Origin: Marinococcus sp. PL1-022 | GTDB taxonomy: Bacteria; Bacillota; Bacilli; Bacillales; Marinococcaceae | Direction of reading: 5' to 3' | Assembly: GCF_033845285.1 (NCBI RefSeq) | Contig: NZ_JAWXCX010000001.1 | Coordinates: 1,875,495-1,939,494, forward strand | Length of the DNA: 64,000 nucleotides | Shown: positions 47,752 to 57,021 of the stretch, piece after piece | How positions within the stretch are numbered: position 1 is the first letter of the stretch | Layout of the letters: each line of letters opens with the position of its first letter | Made by a program: the position numbers and the translations under genes | The notes under the pieces: model-generated | Database searches by the model: none | What the model was told of the DNA's origin: nothing | Seen by the model: the letters and a program-made list of their open reading frames with translations, nothing else

Positions 47752-48058
47752 TCTCTCCACCTCACAAATAAATTTAACTGCAATCCTGTCGTTCTAAGGA
47801 CAAAATAATTTTCTCTTTAGCTTTATCTTATCCATGTGTATAAACTGGTCATTTTATTATGGTCAATTTTATCCGTATAATTCTTATGTGTCAAGTTGGT
47901 TTTAAATTCCTAACAGAATATTGGGCAATCATTTATATTTTATCACATCCCTGCTTCCGTTACGCTTTCTTCAAAAGTTTTATGCATTGAAAAAAATGGT
48001 AGATTATTCCTTTGTTTTGCCATATAATAAAATTACTTTTCAGAAAGAAGGTGAGGCC
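47752..48058. other. Divergent promoter region between cysJ and comGA
   Basis: A gap of 307 nt, AT-rich. A TATAAT lies at about 48024-48029 facing comGA, without a clear -35. I found no convincing ComK box (AAAA-N5-TTTT pair) and no T-box or S-box for cysJ. Confidence 0.5.
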
Positions 48059-49063
48059 TTGACCAACATCGAATCATTTACACGGCAGTTGATCCACCAG
48101 GCAGCAGCCGCCGGCGCATCGGATATTCATCTACTGCCGGCTTATTCAGAAGCTTCTCTCTATTTTCGTATTCATGGACGCCTTGAGCTTTCAGATACGT
48201 ATTCTGCGGCTTTTGCCCACCGGCTTATAACGCACTTAAAGTTCAGAGCCGGCATGGACATCGGCGAACGAAGACGTCCGCAGGACGGCTCGCTTACGTA
48301 CCGCTCGCTTCATCCTCCTGTACATCTCCGTTTTTCCACCATGCCTTCCGATCGTATGGAAAGCTTTTCTATCCGACTGCTCCCGCAGACCTTTCAGTTT
48401 ACCCTCCCGCAGCTGTTTTTAACTTCCACCGCTGCACGATCATTCGAAGACGTGCTTGCCTCCCGTAAAGGACTGGTTCTTTTGACCGGCGCCACCGGGT
48501 CTGGAAAATCCACTACCCTGTACGCTATGCTCGAGCATCTGCTTACCTCCCAATCGCAGCGTATCATTACAATTGAAGATCCTGTAGAGCTCCGGGTACC
48601 CGGCTGCATCCAAACAGAGGTCAACGAAAAAGCCGGGCTTACCTATGCCTCTCTCCTGAAGGCGTCCATGCGGCATGACCCCGACGTGATTATGATCGGG
48701 GAAATACGCGACACTGAAACAGCACAGCTCGCACTCCGTGCTGCACTCACCGGCCACCTTGTACTCACTACGCTTCATGCCGGCAGTACCTTTGGGGTTC
48801 TCCGCAGACTGCTCGACCTAGGTCTTTCAAAAACCGACCTCCTTGAAACAACCACCTTCATTGCCCACCAGCGGCTTATTCCCACAATTTCTCTTTCAAC
48901 CCCCGGGCGCCTGGCGCTATTTGATTTTTCCACCCGAAAGGATATCCATTCCATGCTTCATTCCAATAAACCACTCCATTCGTCCCGTATAAATGAGCAG
49001 CTGAGGCGGGGGTATGCACTCGGCTTATTCGACAGGGAAGCTTTTGCCGGGGTTCAGCCATGA
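48059..49063 (+). CDS. comGA: Competence pseudopilus ATPase ComGA
   Basis: 334 residues from the TTG at 48059, which has AAGGTGAGG upstream and gives the family-like start LTNIESFTRQLIHQAA; the longer frame upstream has no ribosome-binding site. GspE/PilB-type secretion ATPase with SDIHLLP, MDIGERRRPQDGSL, Walker A LLTGATGSGKSTTLYAM, DPVE-type IITIEDPVELR, Asp/His boxes and Walker B VIMIGEIRDTETAQLAL (partial). Powers assembly of the DNA-uptake pseudopilus at the membrane. Overlaps comGB by 4 nt. Confidence 0.93.
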   Translation: MTNIESFTRQLIHQAAAAGASDIHLLPAYSEASLYFRIHGRLELSDTYSAAFAHRLITHLKFRAGMDIGERRRPQDGSLTYRSLHPPVHLRFSTMPSDRMESFSIRLLPQTFQFTLPQLFLTSTAARSFEDVLASRKGLVLLTGATGSGKSTTLYAMLEHLLTSQSQRIITIEDPVELRVPGCIQTEVNEKAGLTYASLLKASMRHDPDVIMIGEIRDTETAQLALRAALTGHLVLTTLHAGSTFGVLRRLLDLGLSKTDLLETTTFIAHQRLIPTISLSTPGRLALFDFSTRKDIHSMLHSNKPLHSSRINEQLRRGYALGLFDREAFAGVQP

Positions 49064-50100
49064 ACAAGCCATTAAAAAAAAACTGGAAGCCGGAGACTAA
49101 AGCATTATTTCTTCAACAGCTGGGCGAGCTGCTCGGCAGCGGGTATCATCTGGATCAATCCATCCAGATGCTTTCCTGGGAACAGCCAGCTTTCGTTACT
49201 GCTTCCCTGCGCAGCATACGAAGACAACTTCGAAGCGGCCGGGAGCTGCATGAGCTTTTACTTGAACACCATTTCCCCTCTGATATTACTGCTTTCGTTT
49301 ATTTCGCGGAGCAGTCCGGCCGGCTCTCTGAAGGATTAACTGCAGCGGGTGATCATTACATGAGCCGCCTGGAGGCCTGGAGCAGTTTCCGTAAAGTTCT
49401 GTATTACCCTTTGTTTCTTCTATGGCTTCTGATCATTCTAGCTTATGTATTTGTCCGCTATCTTTTTCCACAGTTTCTCGAATTGTTTGAACAGCTGAGC
49501 ATGGACCTTCCTTTTTACACCCGGATGGTGATGAACATGATTTCTGCAGCTCCTTTCTTCTTTGCCCTTGTTTTTGTTCTGCTGACTGGCCTCGGGGCAT
49601 TTTATGCTTTCGTTGTCCGTCCGAAGCCCGCTTCAACGCGAGCTTATTTTTGGACCAGGCTGCCGTTTCTCCAGGCTTTTATTACTATGAGAACTACTGC
49701 CTCTTTTGCTGAACAGTTCGGCTACCTGCTACTGAATGGATTATCTCTCTCCGAGAGCTGTACGGTGTTAAAAAACCAAAAGCATTCCCTTTTGATTCAG
49801 GAGGAAGGGGCGCGCTTAGAACAAATGCTCGCTGCCGGGACGCCTCTGCCGGAAACGTTCCGGCGGCCATGGTATCTTGAAAGTCTCGGGCAGGCGGTAC
49901 TATACGGCCAGTCCATCGGAGCGCTAGGCCAAGTGCTGGTGCAATACAGCAGCCATACACAGCACAAACTTGAAGCAGACATCCAGCGGATGACCATGAC
50001 CGCCCAGCCCATTCTTTTCTTTTCGGTCGGCATTCTGATTTTAAGTCTTTTTGCTGCTGTATTTTTACCTATGTATCACATGATTACTTCCATACAATAA
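49060..50100 (+). CDS. comGB: Competence pseudopilus platform protein ComGB
   Basis: 346 residues. GspF/PilC family with two cytoplasmic helical repeats (FLQQLGELLGSGYHLDQSI at the start, FAEQFGYLLLNGLSLSESC in the middle) and three hydrophobic segments (about 108-130, 155-180, 312-340). Inner-membrane platform on which ComGC subunits assemble. The start ATGA overlaps the comGA stop. Confidence 0.92.
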   Translation: MNKPLKKNWKPETKALFLQQLGELLGSGYHLDQSIQMLSWEQPAFVTASLRSIRRQLRSGRELHELLLEHHFPSDITAFVYFAEQSGRLSEGLTAAGDHYMSRLEAWSSFRKVLYYPLFLLWLLIILAYVFVRYLFPQFLELFEQLSMDLPFYTRMVMNMISAAPFFFALVFVLLTGLGAFYAFVVRPKPASTRAYFWTRLPFLQAFITMRTTASFAEQFGYLLLNGLSLSESCTVLKNQKHSLLIQEEGARLEQMLAAGTPLPETFRRPWYLESLGQAVLYGQSIGALGQVLVQYSSHTQHKLEADIQRMTMTAQPILFFSVGILILSLFAAVFLPMYHMITSIQ

Positions 50101-50115
50101 AAGGAGCGACCATTC

Positions 50116-50268
50116 ATGCACACCCCTCACGATTATCTTTCTGAACAACTCCTGGCACTTGAAAAACGCTTGACGGAACTCGAAATGCATAAAGAAGAAG
50201 ACATTGCTTCTTTATTGCAGCTGCTTCACCAATCCCGCCCTGCCAGAAAGGAAAAAACATATGCTTAA
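50116..50268 (+). CDS. Extra 50-residue protein inside the comG operon
   Basis: An ATG at 50116 with AAAGGAGCGA upstream opens a 50-codon ORF between comGB and comGC. The peptide begins MHTPHDYLSEQLLALEK and is amphipathic-helical (LEKRLTELEMHKEED, LLQLLHQSR), ending in a basic tail. No signal peptide or membrane segment. Its stop overlaps the comGC start by 8 nt (ATGCTTAA), and the comGC ribosome-binding site lies in its coding end, so translation is likely coupled. B. subtilis has no gene at this place. Function unknown; a role in pseudopilus assembly is a guess from position. Confidence 0.7.
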   Translation: MHTPHDYLSEQLLALEKRLTELEMHKEEDIASLLQLLHQSRPARKEKTYA

Positions 50269-50560
50269 AAACAATAAAGGTTTTACTATGGTGGAAATGC
50301 TGATTGTACTGCTCATTATTACTGTGCTTCTTTTAATTGCTATCCCGAATATCGGTACAAATAACCAGGTTGCCCAGTCCAAAGGATGTGAAGCCACCAT
50401 CCAGCTTTTAGAAACGCAGGCTGCTGCTTATGAGGTTGAATACGGCAGCGAACCGTCTTCCCTTCAGGACCTTGTTGAAGCTGACTATGTAGAAACGATC
50501 ACCTGCCCGGACAATACTCCGCTTGTATATAACAACGGAGCCGTAAGTAAAGGATCCTGA
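50261..50560 (+). CDS. comGC: Major pseudopilin ComGC
   Basis: 99 residues from the ATG at 50261 (AAAGGAAAAAAC upstream). A longer frame starting at 50204 is in the preceding small gene and is rejected. Type IV pilin N-terminus NNKGFTMVEMLIVLLIITVL with cleavage after Gly and methylated Phe, then a hydrophobic helix. Two Cys (GCEAT and ITCPDN) could form the conserved disulfide. Needs prepilin peptidase ComC, encoded elsewhere. Polymerises into the DNA-uptake pseudopilus. Confidence 0.93.
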   Translation: MLKNNKGFTMVEMLIVLLIITVLLLIAIPNIGTNNQVAQSKGCEATIQLLETQAAAYEVEYGSEPSSLQDLVEADYVETITCPDNTPLVYNNGAVSKGS

Positions 50561-51012
50561 TGCCCATTTTCAGTTCAAAGGGGTATACGCTTCCGGAGAC
50601 TATCATAGTACTGCTCCTATTAAGTGTGCTGGCCGGCGTTCCATTTATTCATTTCTCTTCGGCCTACGAGAGCACCCGTGAAGACCATTTTGTTCAGCAG
50701 CTTCAGGCCGATCTCGTCTACAGCCAGCACTATGCTTATACTCACAATACATCCACCCGTCTCGATTGGAAGGAAGAGGAGGGCTACTATGCCATTTCAG
50801 GCAACGACCGCATTGAACCTTTAATCAGGCGAACTATCCCCGAAGGCTTTTTTTCTCCTACTGCATCTAAGCTGCAGTTTCATACATTGTCTTACACGGG
50901 GAAGGGAAATATTAAAAAAGCAGGCACCATATCTCTTCACGGCCCGTCCCGGTCGTACCGGTTTATATTTCAAATCGGAAGGGGGCGGCTCCGTGTTGAA
51001 ACATCCCCGTAA
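50560..51012 (+). CDS. comGD: Minor pseudopilin ComGD
   Basis: 150 residues. Prepilin motif SSKGYTLPETIIVLLLLSVL followed by a hydrophobic helix and a soluble domain (DLVYSQHYAYTHNTSTRLDW). Start ATG overlaps the comGC stop codon (TGATG). Overlaps comGE by 20 nt. Confidence 0.88.
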   Translation: MPIFSSKGYTLPETIIVLLLLSVLAGVPFIHFSSAYESTREDHFVQQLQADLVYSQHYAYTHNTSTRLDWKEEEGYYAISGNDRIEPLIRRTIPEGFFSPTASKLQFHTLSYTGKGNIKKAGTISLHGPSRSYRFIFQIGRGRLRVETSP

Positions 51013-51322
51013 AGGATTCACGCTGATTGAAGCTGTCAGCGCCCTCTCGCTTCTGTTCGCAGTCACTCTATTTATGCTCCCTCTTCTTCATCAGACCTAT
51101 CAGACCTGGAGCAGTCAGCAGCTGTATTACGAGCAGCTGTATGTGATGGAAAAGGAAGCAGGGCGCATTCACCAGTCTGCCTCTGCTGCAGTCACTGCTG
51201 CCGCTTATGCGAAAGGAAGGATTCATGTTCACATTAAAGAACACGAAGAAGGCTATAAAGTGTGTACCTCGATCGAAGGGAGTCGAAACGAACAGTGTGT
51301 TTACGTCCTTGCAAAACAATAA
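50993..51322 (+). CDS. comGE: Minor pseudopilin ComGE
   Basis: 109 residues, GTG start at 50993 with GGAAGGGGG 7-8 nt upstream. Prepilin motif RKGFTLIEAVSALSLLFAV. Soluble part is short. It overlaps comGD and, by 98 nt, comGF, a dense arrangement typical of this operon. Confidence 0.85.
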   Translation: MLKHPRKGFTLIEAVSALSLLFAVTLFMLPLLHQTYQTWSSQQLYYEQLYVMEKEAGRIHQSASAAVTAAAYAKGRIHVHIKEHEEGYKVCTSIEGSRNEQCVYVLAKQ

Positions 51323-51737
51323 GGGAGTCACACTTCCTGAAATGATTATTACTCTTTTGCTGTTCAGTCTGTGGGCGCTGGCCGCCGCTAAATTCAGCAG
51401 CCTGTTTTTAACTGAGGTTCCGGTCCCGGACACTGAAGCACGCTTATTTGTTCAGCAGATGGAGGAGGATATGCAGAACGCTCAATCATTAGCGTATGAT
51501 AAGCAACGGTTTTATATTGAGTCCAGACAACATTCGTACGAATATTTTATGTCTAACGGACGGGTCATACGCCGGGTGGACAACGAAGGGTTTGAAATTA
51601 TGCTTCAGGGAGCTTCTTCATTTTTTGTGGAGACAGAAAAGTACGGGGCAGATGTGGAGGTGATTTTAAACGATGGGCAGTACATTCAATCGTTTCTTTC
51701 CTATCATGCAGCAACAAAGAAGCTTTTCCCTTCGTAA
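51225..51737 (+). CDS. comGF: Minor pseudopilin ComGF
   Basis: 170 residues from the ATG at 51225, which follows AAGGAAGG by 4-5 nt; a GTG at 51297 would remove the 24-residue leader. Prepilin motif NNKGVTLPEMIITLLLFSLW, then the ComGF domain (ARLFVQQMEEDMQNAQSLAY, FMSNGRVIRRVDNEGFEIML). The long leader and large overlap with comGE leave the true start open. Assembly factor of the pseudopilus. Confidence 0.82.
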   Translation: MFTLKNTKKAIKCVPRSKGVETNSVFTSLQNNKGVTLPEMIITLLLFSLWALAAAKFSSLFLTEVPVPDTEARLFVQQMEEDMQNAQSLAYDKQRFYIESRQHSYEYFMSNGRVIRRVDNEGFEIMLQGASSFFVETEKYGADVEVILNDGQYIQSFLSYHAATKKLFPS

Positions 51738-52080
51738 AGGCTTTATTCTCCCCTCCACCATTTTCTTTCTTTTATTCATTTTCTTATTTATGGTGCTGGC
51801 TGCCGGGCTTTTAAAGCTTCAGCTTCTGCAGCAGAACGAGGAGTTTGGATCTCTGGACGTAAAATGGATGATCCGCAATGCTGAAAATATTTATATTGAA
51901 GCTCCATCTGAAACCGGAGCCGTTTCGATGCCGGATGGAACTGTGGAATGGGTGGAATCAGAGAACGGCGAAATCAAATTCACCGCCCGTCACCGTCTGG
52001 GATTTTCCAAACAGGTAACTTATTCCGCAGACTGGAAAGCCTCTGTTTATGAAGCTCTTTCTTACCCGGAACATAAATAA
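51706..52080 (+). CDS. comGG: Minor pseudopilin ComGG
   Basis: 124 residues from the ATG at 51706. N-terminus LRKGFILPSTIFFLLFIFLF (20 residues) is pilin-like though the usual Glu5 is replaced (GFILPS), which fits ComGG proteins. Acidic soluble domain (SMPDGTVEWVESENGEI). Last gene of the operon, overlapping comGF by 32 nt; followed by a hairpin. Confidence 0.82.
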   Translation: MQQQRSFSLRKGFILPSTIFFLLFIFLFMVLAAGLLKLQLLQQNEEFGSLDVKWMIRNAENIYIEAPSETGAVSMPDGTVEWVESENGEIKFTARHRLGFSKQVTYSADWKASVYEALSYPEHK

Positions 52081-52111
52081 AGCCGGCAGATTTTATTCTG
52101 CCGGCTTTCAT
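52081..52111. terminator. Hairpin between comGG and the DUF1385/YqgV gene
   Basis: Stem AGCCGGCAGA/TCTGCCGGCT with loop TTTTAT; tail TTTCATATT on the plus strand is a weak T-run. Probably ends both convergent transcripts. Confidence 0.65.
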
Positions 52112-52116
52112 ATTGG

Positions 52117-52428
52117 TTATTGCTTTCGTGCATTGCGTACTGATTCCATTTTCTTTTTCATCTGCCTGCCTTCTGCATCACGGCGGTCGTCAATACGAAT
52201 ATTTGTTGATACACGCTGATAGCCTTCCTGAAAAGGAAGCTCGTGTATTTCTCTGACGGCCTGAAGCAGATCATCAATATTTCCTTCGAGAAGCGTACTC
52301 ATTGGCGTCATTTCAATATCAATTTTATCATTATATTTTTCCAGCACGTCCTGAATTTTTGCTACTGTGTCCGACATCCCAGTCCCCTGCTTATCTACAG
52401 GCGATACTGTCACATCAACAATTGCCAT
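52117..52428 (-). CDS. yqgV: YqgV-like MTH1187 family thiamine-binding protein (internal start)
   Basis: 103 residues starting at the ATG at 52428 within the larger ORF. AAAGGAG ends 9 nt before it, an ideal ribosome-binding site. The sequence MAIVDVTVSPVDKQGTGMSD begins exactly where stand-alone family members begin, and continues with VAKIQDVLEKY, IEMTPMSTLLEG and the conserved VSTNIRIDDRRD. Family members are small ferredoxin-like-fold proteins binding thiamine or related ligands. Likely a separately translated product; whether the long form is also made is unknown. Confidence 0.75.
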   Translation of the reverse strand: MAIVDVTVSPVDKQGTGMSDTVAKIQDVLEKYNDKIDIEMTPMSTLLEGNIDDLLQAVREIHELPFQEGYQRVSTNIRIDDRRDAEGRQMKKKMESVRNARKQ

Positions 52429-53139
52429 AGATATCTGCTCCTTTCGTTTTCTTCCAAGCCGGTGCGGGAATTCACGCTCAGCAAGCATCCGAAACGCTGC
52501 AATCGCAGTTTGAATGTGCACCTTCTCCGGCACAGAACATGTAACATTTCGTTGAAGCCAGTACGAAGGCTTCAGCCATGTGTTTCTGCTCCCGGCAAAG
52601 TGCCGCTGAAGCACTTCTTCTGCCGCTAAAGCCATCGGCAGAGATATATAAGCACTGACAGCTATAAAAACATTTCCCGGGGAAGAAGCAATATAAACCG
52701 GAGACGCCATGACAAGAAACAAAACGAAGTATATAAATACAATATTGGTAGAACAGTGACGGTTTGTAATCGCTGCCCTTCTCACTCTTCTCCAAGAGCT
52801 TTTTCCAGGCACGCCCGTGAAGCTGAATACTTTGTGCTCTGCGCCGTGGAACTTTTTGAGCTGCTGTGGAAAAATAAAATGAGTGCCCATGACAAACAGT
52901 AAAAACGAATATAAAGGCAGCAGCTGAAAAATGGCCGCTATGAGCCAGGCTGCGGCTGTGAGCTTGTACCAGGCAGGCATCGCACCTGTAACTACTGCTG
53001 CCACTCTTGAATAAGACCGCAGGGAAAGTGGAAGCAGTTCGGCATGTATCTTTCCTTCGCTGTCGACATAGGCTCTGCTGATAAAGGAAGCCCCGAAGAA
53101 AAATACGCCGCGCTGATAGGAAAGCCCGCGAATTTTCAT
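52117..53139 (-). CDS. DUF1385 membrane protein in frame with YqgV-type thiamine-binding domain
   Basis: 340 codons. Residues 1-235 are a divergent DUF1385 (YqhQ-like) membrane protein: hydrophobic segments at about 60-90 and 130-165 and family motifs KKFHGAEHKVFS (97-107) and NRHCSTNIVF (126-135). Residues 238-340 are a complete MTH1187/YqgV-type domain. No stop separates them, but an ATG at codon 238 has a consensus ribosome-binding site. So the locus may make a fusion protein, a separate YqgV, or both. YqhQ lies elsewhere in B. subtilis (near pepP). ATG at 53139. Confidence 0.78.
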   Translation of the reverse strand: MKIRGLSYQRGVFFFGASFISRAYVDSEGKIHAELLPLSLRSYSRVAAVVTGAMPAWYKLTAAAWLIAAIFQLLPLYSFLLFVMGTHFIFPQQLKKFHGAEHKVFSFTGVPGKSSWRRVRRAAITNRHCSTNIVFIYFVLFLVMASPVYIASSPGNVFIAVSAYISLPMALAAEEVLQRHFAGSRNTWLKPSYWLQRNVTCSVPEKVHIQTAIAAFRMLAEREFPHRLGRKRKEQISMAIVDVTVSPVDKQGTGMSDTVAKIQDVLEKYNDKIDIEMTPMSTLLEGNIDDLLQAVREIHELPFQEGYQRVSTNIRIDDRRDAEGRQMKKKMESVRNARKQ

Positions 53140-53147
53140 GCCGGCTG

Positions 53148-54566
53148 TTACTCGCCGTACATGAATCGCGAACCGGCAATTCCGGGTTTGGTCATTTCCT
53201 TGGCATCCAAAATTTCATCGAGCTCTTCTTCCGATAATATCCCCCGTTCGATGCAGATCGAACGTACACTCTGATCCGTTTCAATCGCTTCTCTTGCTAT
53301 TCTCGCAGCTGTTTCATACCCAACATGCGGATTGATGGCTGTAATAATACCTACGCTTCGTTCCACCATGTTCCGGCAGTGTTCAATATTGGCTGTAATT
53401 CCTTCAATAGTAAATTCGCGAAACACCTTTAAACCATTCTGGAGCACTGACAGGGACTGAAGCAGATTAAAGACGAGCACTGGCTCCATTACATTCAATT
53501 CGAGCTGACCGGCTTCCGAAGCATGGCTGATCGTATGGTCATTGCCGATAACCTGAAAGGAGATCTGATTGATTAATTCGCACATGACCGGGTTTACTTT
53601 CCCCGGCATAATCGAGGAGCCCGGCTGACGGGAAGGAAGGTTAATTTCATTCAGGCCGGTTCTAGGCCCGGAGCTCATCAGCCGCAGATCGTTCGCCATC
53701 TTGGAAAGGTTAATCGCATGTACCTTGAGTGCCGCGGACAGTTCGGTGTAGGAGTCCGTGTTCTGAGTCGCATCCACAAGATCAGTGGCACTGTAAAACG
53801 GCATCCCGGTCTGCTCAGCAAGAATTTCTGCTACGCGGCCAATGTATTCAGGCATCGCGTTGAGTCCTGTGCCGACCGCTGTTGCCCCGAGGTTGATTTC
53901 ATACAAATGATCCACTGACCGTTTAATGCGGCGCAGGTCTCTCGTCAGCACCCGGCGGTAGGCACCGAACTCCTGGCCGAGGCGGATCGGCACAGCATCC
54001 TGCAGATGCGTACGCCCCATTTTAATGACATTGTCAAACTCTTCTTCTTTGTGCCCCATCGCTTCGATCAAGTTGTCGAGCGCAGTCACAAGCCCCTGTG
54101 AAAGGCGCAGCGCTGAAATGTGAATCGCCGTCGGGAACGAGTCGTTGGTGGACTGGGCCATGTTCACATGAGTATTCGGGCTGACCCGCAGGTAATCCCC
54201 TTTTTCGCCGCCCAGTAATTCAATGGCCCGGTTGGCAATAACTTCGTTTGCGTTCATATTAAAGGAAGTCCCTGCTCCGCCCTGAATGGAGTCCACAATA
54301 AATTGATCATCAAATTTGCCCTCGATCACTTCATCCGCTGCTTCTACAACTGCCTGAGCAATAGATTCATTCAGAAAGCCAACTTCCGCGTTGGCAGTGG
54401 CTGCTGCTTTTTTTACGTAACCGAACCCTTTAATCAATTCCGTGTGCGGCGGGTAGCCGGTTATTGGAAAGTTTTCTTTTGCCCTCAGCGTCTGAATTCC
54501 GTAATAAGCATCTTTAGGTACTCTCTTTTCTCCTAAAAAGTCACGTTCCACACGGTAGTTTTCCAT
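53148..54566 (-). CDS. aspA: Aspartate ammonia-lyase
   Basis: 472 residues. Fumarase/aspartase superfamily with the signature loop GSSIMPGKVNPVMCE and substrate motifs TSTNDSFPTAIH-like (AQSTNDSFPTA) and GRTHLQDAVPIRLGQEF (partial). GGAGTSFNMNANEVIANRA is more typical of aspartase than fumarase. Converts aspartate to fumarate and ammonia. ATG at 54566. 8 nt separate its stop from the DUF1385/YqgV start, so they may be cotranscribed. Fumarase activity cannot be fully excluded. Confidence 0.9.
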   Translation of the reverse strand: MENYRVERDFLGEKRVPKDAYYGIQTLRAKENFPITGYPPHTELIKGFGYVKKAAATANAEVGFLNESIAQAVVEAADEVIEGKFDDQFIVDSIQGGAGTSFNMNANEVIANRAIELLGGEKGDYLRVSPNTHVNMAQSTNDSFPTAIHISALRLSQGLVTALDNLIEAMGHKEEEFDNVIKMGRTHLQDAVPIRLGQEFGAYRRVLTRDLRRIKRSVDHLYEINLGATAVGTGLNAMPEYIGRVAEILAEQTGMPFYSATDLVDATQNTDSYTELSAALKVHAINLSKMANDLRLMSSGPRTGLNEINLPSRQPGSSIMPGKVNPVMCELINQISFQVIGNDHTISHASEAGQLELNVMEPVLVFNLLQSLSVLQNGLKVFREFTIEGITANIEHCRNMVERSVGIITAINPHVGYETAARIAREAIETDQSVRSICIERGILSEEELDEILDAKEMTKPGIAGSRFMYGE

Positions 54567-54602
54567 GTTTTTAGCCCCTTTTTAACAATCATTTTTTCTA
54601 TC

Positions 54603-55574
54603 TTATTTATTCATATAATGATTTTTAGCCAGCCAGGCGGCTCCCGCTACCCCGGCGTCGTTCCCGAGATCGGCAATGACAAAATCCGTTCCTCTTTTTA
54701 CTTTGTCGAGCGCGAACATATCAAAATGAGCGCGCAGTGTCTGCAGTAAATCGTCTCCGGCAGCGGCCACTCCGCCTCCGATCACGATTCTCTCCGGATT
54801 CAGGGTGTTGGCAATATTGCCGACAGCAAGCCCCAGATAATACATGGCGTGGTCAATCACACCGGCACAATATGGATCAGCGGAGGTGGCATAGGCGAAC
54901 AAATCCTTGGTCGTAATTTCTTCTCCGCGCTGGTGCACATCATAAATCGGAGAGCCTTCTGCTTCGTCTATATGTTCGAGGGCCCCGCGTACCATACCCG
55001 TTGCCGAAGAGATGGTTTCCAGGCAGCCGCGTTTACCGCAGTTGCAAAGCCGGCCGCCCTCCGGTTTTACGGTGACATGGCCAATTTCACCAGCCATATT
55101 ATCTTTGCCGTTCACAATGTCCCCATTGAGCACAATGCCGGCTCCGACCCCCGTGCCAAGGGTGATAAAAATCATATCCTGGACGTCCGTGCCGGCCCCT
55201 TTCCAGTATTCGCCCGCCGCTGCCAGGTTCGCATCGTTATCGAGCGCCACGGGAAAACCGAGCTTTTCTTCGAGAATACGTGCGACCGGGTAATCCTTCC
55301 ATCCTATGTTTGTTGCGAATTCAATAATGCCATTTTCTATGTCGATAAAGCCGGGAAGCCCCGCGCCGGCGCCGGCGACTTCCTTAAGCGGAATATTTTT
55401 TCCATTCAGTTCATGCTCAATCGATGCTGCAATTTCATCGAGAACGTATTTTCCGTTTTCTTCCTTGCTGGTGGTAATGCTCCATTTGTGCTGCATGCCG
55501 CCGTCCTGGTCAAACAGCGCCATTTTTACCGCGGTGCCTCCGATATCAATTCCGATCACGTATTTTCCAGCCAT
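54603..55574 (-). CDS. glcK: Glucokinase (ROK family)
   Basis: 323 residues from the ATG at 55574 (AAGGGG upstream). ATP-binding GIDIGGTAVKMALFD near the N-terminus, substrate motif GAGLPGFIDI, DNDANLAAAGEYW and the ROK zinc motif CNCGKRGCLETISSATG (C-x-C-x4-C). Phosphorylates glucose. In B. subtilis glcK (yqgR) follows yqgQ, as here; it starts 4 nt after the yqgQ stop. Confidence 0.94.
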   Translation of the reverse strand: MAGKYVIGIDIGGTAVKMALFDQDGGMQHKWSITTSKEENGKYVLDEIAASIEHELNGKNIPLKEVAGAGAGLPGFIDIENGIIEFATNIGWKDYPVARILEEKLGFPVALDNDANLAAAGEYWKGAGTDVQDMIFITLGTGVGAGIVLNGDIVNGKDNMAGEIGHVTVKPEGGRLCNCGKRGCLETISSATGMVRGALEHIDEAEGSPIYDVHQRGEEITTKDLFAYATSADPYCAGVIDHAMYYLGLAVGNIANTLNPERIVIGGGVAAAGDDLLQTLRAHFDMFALDKVKRGTDFVIADLGNDAGVAGAAWLAKNHYMNK

Positions 55575-55578
55575 TTGT

Positions 55579-55779
55579 CTACCCCTTTTCCTGCTCAATT
55601 CGTCGTTCTCTTTTTATCGTTAACAAAGAAGTCTGATACATCCTGACATCCATAAGCCCGTTTTTGTAGGCCTCTCTAATTTCTTCTTCCATTAAATCTA
55701 GATCCATTAAACGATTTTTCGTATAGATAAAAGCTCCGACTGTGCGCAGCCACATCCGGATTTCTGTCATGGATTCCAT
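55579..55779 (-). CDS. yqgQ: YqgQ family protein (DUF910)
   Basis: 66 residues from the ATG at 55779 (AGCAGGATAACT upstream; an ATG at 55800 would give 73). Small, helical, with MWLRTVGAFIYTKNRLMDLD and MEEEIREAYKNGLMD, characteristic of DUF910. Function unknown, nucleic-acid binding has been suggested for the fold. Between yqgP and glcK as in B. subtilis. Confidence 0.85.
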   Translation of the reverse strand: MESMTEIRMWLRTVGAFIYTKNRLMDLDLMEEEIREAYKNGLMDVRMYQTSLLTIKRERRIEQEKG

Positions 55780-55839
55780 AGTTATCCTGCTTCCTTTCAT
55801 TATATCAAGCGAAAGGCGTTTTTCTACTACGTATTCTGA

Positions 55840-57021
55840 TTAATTCCACCGGTACATACCGATCGCAAAAAAGACGGCAAAGGCAAGAACAAAAAACGCC
55901 AGCGCCCCTACACGTACAAACTGCCAGCGGTGTCCCGGCAGATGCACAAATACGGAGGCGATAAATCCGCCGACAAGGCCGCCAATATGGGCACCGTTAT
56001 CCACTGCCTGCACGGTAAATCCAAATACCAGATTAATCCCGAGAATAACAAGCACGTTCATGCCAAGCGTGCGGAAAAACAGCCGCTGGTGGGCAAGACC
56101 CAGGTATAAAAGGGCTCCAAAACAGCCGAAGATAGCACCACTGGCCCCGGCTGACACCTGTTCATTCATCGCAAAGCTGACTGTCGATGCAAATACGCCT
56201 GCAGCAAAATAAATGATAATAAAGCGAGCTGTGCCGTAAATACGTTCTGTGATGCCGCCAATAAAAAACAATGCCAGACTGTTCATAAACAAGTGCAGAA
56301 AACCAATATGCAGGAACATGGCACTAACGAGCCGCCACCATTCCCCGTCTACAATTCCCGGGTTATATTTCGCGCCAAGCTCGATGAGGGTGTTGACGTT
56401 CATACTGCTTCCCGAGCGTTCCAGCACTAAAAAAATGACAGCAAGTAATGCCAGCACCGTATAGGTCACAATCGGCTTTCCGCTCGAGAAAAAGGACATG
56501 TCCTGCTCTTCAAGCTCCCGCTGCCTTTTTTCTGCCTGACGACGGTAAAAGGAGGCTCTTTGTTCGTGCTCTTCGGCTTCAAGCTCTTCTTCAAGTCTTC
56601 CCCATGTCCATTCACTGGTTTTTAGATACGTACTGACAGCCGGGGGCGCATCCGCCAGACCCCGCCCGTTGTCATTGGCGAATAAAAAGGAACGGGCATC
56701 CAGGTCCCCGCTCTCCAGCGGCTCTGCCATATCCGCCGGAGGATAGGAAGTAATATATACGTTTGCAAATTTTGCTTTTCTTAAGGCGAGCCGCCTCTTC
56801 CACCCGTGAAAGCTTTTCTCCGCTTCTTGCCTGTCGTCCTCCAGCCGCCCTAGACGTTCATATTCCACCCGAGCCACACGCACAATCCAAGGCTGTCCAT
56901 CGACATCCCCCTGGAGCCATATCCGCTTCCGGTCCGGGCCGACATCAATCAGGCGGAAGGATTCTTCCTCCATAAGCTGCTCTGTGAATTTCCAAAACTG
57001 ATGAGCTTCCCGTTTAGACAT
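55840..57021 (-). CDS. yqgP: Rhomboid family intramembrane serine protease (YqgP-like)
   Basis: 393 residues. Soluble N-terminal domain (1-175) with KRIWLQGDVDGQPWIVRV, then a rhomboid core of about six or seven helices. The catalytic Ser is in SAGASGAIFGCFGALLYLG and the His in VDNGAHIGGLVGGF; HLFMNSLALFF precedes them. B. subtilis YqgP is about 507 residues with a C-terminal TPR domain; here that domain is absent. YqgP cleaves the Mg transporter MgtE under Mn stress with FtsH. ATG at 57021, overlapping the preceding gene. Confidence 0.9.
   Translation of the reverse strand: MSKREAHQFWKFTEQLMEEESFRLIDVGPDRKRIWLQGDVDGQPWIVRVARVEYERLGRLEDDRQEAEKSFHGWKRRLALRKAKFANVYITSYPPADMAEPLESGDLDARSFLFANDNGRGLADAPPAVSTYLKTSEWTWGRLEEELEAEEHEQRASFYRRQAEKRQRELEEQDMSFFSSGKPIVTYTVLALLAVIFLVLERSGSSMNVNTLIELGAKYNPGIVDGEWWRLVSAMFLHIGFLHLFMNSLALFFIGGITERIYGTARFIIIYFAAGVFASTVSFAMNEQVSAGASGAIFGCFGALLYLGLAHQRLFFRTLGMNVLVILGINLVFGFTVQAVDNGAHIGGLVGGFIASVFVHLPGHRWQFVRVGALAFFVLAFAVFFAIGMYRWN

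Follow-up and report, generated by a model that had tools for sequence, protein, structure and literature searches.

Frame and domain organization of the locus

Does a single open reading frame that joins a DUF1385-type membrane domain to a YqgV-type domain, and that carries a strong start signal between the two, give one protein or two? The frame lies in the window, i.e. the whole stretch of 64,000 nucleotides from Marinococcus sp. PL1-022 that was analysed. It occupies positions 53139-52117 of the minus strand and has 340 codons, an ATG start and no internal stop; the full-length product would have 340 aa and a calculated mass of 38.7 kDa. Its N-terminal part (aa 46-219; 52483..53004, minus strand) matches DUF1385 (PF07136) in Pfam with an E-value of 3e-11 and 43.4 bits (gathering score cut-off: 22.1) over profile positions 51-224 of 227, and contains the invariant HGAEHK and CST motifs and hydrophobic helices. 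This domain (N-domain below) belongs to a divergent DUF1385 subfamily, for which NCBIfam has no name, with about 28% identity to ordinary DUF1385 proteins (B. subtilis YqhQ type). The C-terminal part is an MTH1187 family thiamine-binding protein according to NCBIfam (TIGR00106), with a Pfam Thiamine_BP match (PF01910; E 6e-27) at aa 241-335 (52135..52419, minus strand). The genome has a single Thiamine_BP gene and a single DUF1385 gene, and both are this frame. In a literature search for DUF1385, YqgV and YqhQ, DUF1385 was hardly named, YqgV appeared mostly as an unrelated peptide string, and YqhQ was mentioned in passing.

The two domains are connected by a short basic linker (52429..52464, minus strand), which carries a Shine-Dalgarno (SD) sequence, AAAGGAG (52438..52444, minus strand), that encodes Lys-Glu in the fusion. 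Nine nucleotides further on is an internal ATG (52426..52428, minus strand); it is residue 238, and the TIGR00106/YqgV domain starts just there. Across the junction the letters are CGA AAG GAG, followed by the 9-nt spacer CAGATATCT and then ATG GCA, and the duplex of the internal SD with the 16S tail has an energy of -10.5 kcal/mol. The locus therefore has an in-frame start within a larger ORF, preceded by an SD of its own at a suitable spacing, as expected of internal initiation. The nested frame from this ATG (52117..52428, minus strand) would give a free YqgV/MTH1187 protein of 103 aa and 11.8 kDa (calculated), which matches the full-length family profiles (TIGR00106, PF01910) with 87.7 bits over 54.7 and 97.6 over 24.9. 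The sequence-only reading had described DUF1385 and YqgV in one stop-free ORF, with AAAGGAG 9 nt ahead of the ATG at 52428 and at the YqgV N-terminus, and had expected products of about 38 and 11 kDa; the Pfam matches, the junction letters, the domain limits and the calculated masses agree with it on each of these points. We note that the pattern AAAGGAG-N6..9-ATG occurs six times in the window (0.9 expected). Most of these matches are probably ordinary gene starts, so the case for internal initiation rests on comparative evidence and not on the rarity of the pattern. No Rfam RNA elements were found in window positions 48000-57000.

The structure model of the whole protein has a mean pLDDT of 87.5 and is weakest at residues 232-235 of the linker, just ahead of the internal Met. 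The C-terminal domain matches the MTH1187, MJ1052 and TM0486 structures and has the ferredoxin-like fold of the solved members (Foldseek: 2eky, 1lxn and 1vk8, target TM about 0.74-0.81). The N-domain modelled alone has a pLDDT of 93.6; searches for a solved relative gave no Foldseek match at E<=0.001 and no VIA-align match above Z 4.6. Its loops and C-terminal linker are positively charged, which together with the hydrophobic helices suggests that the YqgV domain faces the cytoplasm. Membrane tethering is accordingly predicted from the topology, and thiamine binding by the C-terminal domain is putative, following the family name.

The start codon of the full-length product (53137..53139, minus strand) is 8 nt past the TAA of the upstream gene, aspartate ammonia-lyase (aspA; 53148..54566, minus strand; TIGR00839 over cut-off), and has a weak SD (-3.7 kcal/mol). 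The short gap and the weak SD suggest that the long product is translationally coupled to aspA, with which the fusion likely shares a transcript. The gene order is rhomboid protease, yqgQ, glucokinase, aspA and the fusion, followed by the comG operon in convergent orientation on the other strand. YqgV appears to sit at its old location, because relatives of several families keep glucokinase and/or comG next to the fusion gene; the membrane domain would then have been joined to YqgV there.

Distribution of the fusion among relatives

The same in-frame fusion is found in 52 distinct genomes (from a survey of the order plus further searches), including all three sampled species of the same genus. 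These genomes span about seven GTDB families of alkaliphilic/halophilic Bacillales, with the fusion present in Halalkalibacter, Alkalihalobacillus, Alkalihalophilus, Shouchella clausii, Evansella, Salipaludibacillus and Alteribacillus, and the aligned fused proteins share 35-92% identity with the window protein. The arrangement is both widespread and old, which the sequence-only reading could not know. Among the 397 genomes drawn from the order for the survey, 51 contain the N-domain subfamily. Inspection of their junctions gave 41 fused genes, four adjacent but separate pairs, five N-domain genes without an adjoining YqgV, and one fused gene with a broken N-terminal part.

In that last gene (G156, L076), the membrane part is apparently broken while the internal SD, the start and YqgV are intact; this reflects either an error in the draft sequence or a lineage in which the free product alone was kept.

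Among the checks proposed in the sequence-only reading were verification of the letters at the junction and a search of relatives for a stop codon between the domains. An error is not indicated, as three same-genus genomes (86-92% identity) share both the open frame and the SD, and altogether 52 genes are fused and five are adjacent but separate. Neither a hidden stop nor separate genes in all close relatives was found. A stop-codon loss private to the window genome was ruled out, since relatives carry the same fusion.

Most of the order has YqgV as a gene by itself, and Brevibacillus has the N-domain by itself, which makes the joined gene the derived state. In Brevibacillus and the other searched families of the class, the N-domain is separate, with no YqgV within the fetched flank. 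In Brevibacillus-type genomes (L114:2998-3702, L185:1498-2169) the stand-alone relative of the N-domain divergently adjoins the radical SAM gene yfkAB (TIGR04478), and this neighbour may be a clue to the function of the membrane domain. In a quick tree, which has long branches and several unresolved forks, the stand-alone forms fall outside, whereas the forms with adjacent but separate genes (G011/G004; G285/G305/G168) fall within fused groups or next to them. This suggests that the latter are secondary splits, which would have arisen in two or three lineages. The frame is broken by an out-of-frame overlap in G004, G285 and G305 and by a stop just upstream in G168, and all five split genes retain the YqgV start. 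G011 (L016/L110, Bacillus sp. FJAT-44742) is a natural separation experiment, with a lone in-frame TAA directly ahead of the internal ATG.

Other genomes differ in their complement of the two domains. G252 (L080/L095) has the membrane domain between glucokinase and comG and no Thiamine_BP gene anywhere in the genome, so the membrane domain can presumably act without YqgV. Some genomes carry a second PF01910 gene, and the internal-start product is therefore not always the sole source of YqgV.

Selection on the internal start and on the frame

Synonymous codon choice singles out the SD. Of 36 genes, 34 write the first Lys-Glu pair ahead of the internal start as AAG-GAG, compared with 3.3 expected from each gene's own codon use; at other places in these genes, only four of 70 such pairs are AAG-GAG. 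In a synonymous-conservation scan of 45 genes, AAG at codon -5 (33 of 35; z 7.1) and GAG at codon -4 (41 of 41; z 8.2) rank top of all non-serine columns; like the other counts given here, these were made on related genomes and so lack full independence, although at about 40% protein identity one expects synonymous sites to be close to saturated. The Lys/Glu codons at -6, -3 and -2 of the same genes are nearly evenly split, and they serve as an internal control for shared ancestry. Serine is encoded by two separate codon blocks, which is known to inflate synonymous-conservation scores; the serine columns, the highest in the scan, were set aside as an effect of these blocks.

The start codon tells the same story. 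Among 52 genes it is ATG in 45, TTG in six and GTG in one, and no other codon is found. At least seven independent changes have occurred at this position, each to a bacterial start codon and none to another Leu, Val or Ile codon. TTG and GTG make up 12% of the Leu/Val/Ile codons in the fused genes, so if hydrophobicity alone mattered they would be expected about 12% of the time. Codons +2 and +4 after the internal start are biased to ATT/GAT, as they are after real starts. The spacing from SD to start (counted from AAGGAGG) is 8 nt in 37 of 44 genes, though linker length varies. In 46 of 52 genes the predicted pairing of the internal SD is stronger than that of the upstream SD (median -11.8 vs -7.8 kcal/mol), which agrees with a report that alternative starts in Salmonella have a stronger SD context (PMC11005335). 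The start site is conserved beyond what the protein sequence needs, as expected of internal initiation. Judged from these comparisons, selection acts on the internal SD and start codon of the fused clade independently of the protein sequence, and this points to two products.

The frame itself is also retained. Linkers of the fused genes range from 11 to 18 residues, and at least 18 changes of linker length are seen on the tree, each by whole codons and without stops, with only two or three frame-breaking events; this count is partly circular, as an intact frame was itself the criterion for counting a gene as fused. Since the frame survived these changes and is free of stops in 52 of 57 adjacent pairs, loss of the fusion appears to be counter-selected in most lineages. 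In most lineages, then, the long product would seem to matter as well as the short one; the split lineages show that the fusion is dispensable in them.

Alternative explanations

The fusion could be an evolutionary accident without a job, with free YqgV as the product that does the work and the membrane protein ahead of it simply reading through. The stronger internal SD, the prevalence of YqgV alone as the usual form in the order and the occurrence of split versions are all compatible with such an accident, but it leaves the retention of the frame unexplained, and we consider it improbable. Less probable still, and indeed quite unlikely, is that the fusion is the sole product and the SD-like sequence is a programmed pause that aids insertion or folding. 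The site is well placed for a pause, just past the last helices of the membrane domain and just ahead of the soluble domain. A pause, however, needs no start codon, whereas ATG, TTG or GTG stands at working distance in 52 of 52 genes; it likewise does not call for changes that lead only to start codons, or for the bias at codons +2 and +4.

It is also conceivable that only the fusion is made and that its K-K-E-E linker is kept for protein reasons, with the SD as a by-product. A basic/acidic linker is indeed common in the family, but a protein-level demand would not make the synonymous choice near-absolute in just those two codons that form the SD and leave the Lys/Glu codons next to them without bias, so this reading has very little going for it. 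The chance that a sequencing or assembly error conceals a stop codon is negligible, since three same-genus genomes and a further 48 share the frame.

One gene, probably two products

The comparative evidence makes it very probable that one gene gives two products by internal initiation: a membrane-tethered protein of 38.7 kDa and a free YqgV of 11.8 kDa. Both options raised in the sequence-only reading, a fusion by stop loss and two products from one frame, found support and are compatible, the joined gene being derived and the internal start selected. Under the two-product reading, ribosomes starting at 53139 would make a membrane protein with a C-terminal, cytoplasm-facing YqgV/MTH1187 domain, and those starting at the internal SD/ATG (52438-52444 / 52428) would make free YqgV. 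Free YqgV should be the commoner product, because the internal site has the much stronger SD in the window. Since crystals of YqgV-type proteins contain several chains, the working form is likely to be a mixed oligomer, with free subunits held at the membrane domain by one or a few tethered ones. Given two products, we would put the co-assembly of tethered and free YqgV, argued here by analogy, at an even chance.

In-frame internal initiation is already known from Cas11, CcmM and LysIME-EF1, and DUF1385-YqgV would be a new and unusually clearly conserved example. The gene of the phage endolysin LysIME-EF1 has an internal RBS and start and, as proposed here, yields the full-length protein and its free C-terminal domain; three of the free domains join one full-length chain in the assembly (PMC7098653). 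LysIME-EF1 is, however, a soluble phage lysin with a cell-wall-binding domain, whereas the present case is a chromosomal membrane protein with a thiamine-binding-type domain, for which co-assembly is proposed. This precedent and the multi-chain entries of MTH1187-type structures (1lxn has four chains) make a mixed oligomer the most natural reason for both products. According to PMC11899642 (citing McBride et al. 2020), the Cas11 small subunit is translated from an in-frame internal start in cas10d/cas8 large-subunit genes. A small product from inside a larger gene would be the shared feature; Cas11 belongs to a CRISPR effector complex and its proteins are unrelated to DUF1385-YqgV. CcmM (long/short) and SsaQ, as described in PMC11005335, are N-terminal proteoform pairs. 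Cooperation within one complex is a feature of CcmM and SsaQ, which are unrelated proteins, and here the long form adds a membrane domain. Known members of the YqgV/MTH1187/UPF0045/DUF77 family (1lxn, 2eky, 1vk8) match the C-terminal domain in sequence and fold over its whole length but are free-standing, whereas in the present gene it is joined to a membrane domain as well; DUF1385 proteins resemble the N-domain by a Pfam match over the gathering score and differ from it in that it forms a divergent subfamily fused to YqgV.

In-frame internal starts are difficult to establish from sequence. Start-codon substitution, SD codon choice and frame retention over dozens of genomes make a strong sequence-based case, and an annotation giving a single CDS at this locus would miss the small protein. 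The fusion also connects two conserved families that are unknown or poorly known, DUF1385 and YqgV, and offers a testable lead for both. A role in thiamine/HMP handling may be supposed. More tentatively, and with the odds rather against it, the gene could be a conserved one-gene device with which alkaliphilic/halophilic bacilli control the proportion of tethered and free subunits in a thiamine-binding-type oligomer. If so, it would provide the first functional link for two poorly understood families, and YqgV would have the DUF1385-type domain as its partner in the membrane, perhaps for taking up or sensing vitamin B1/HMP.
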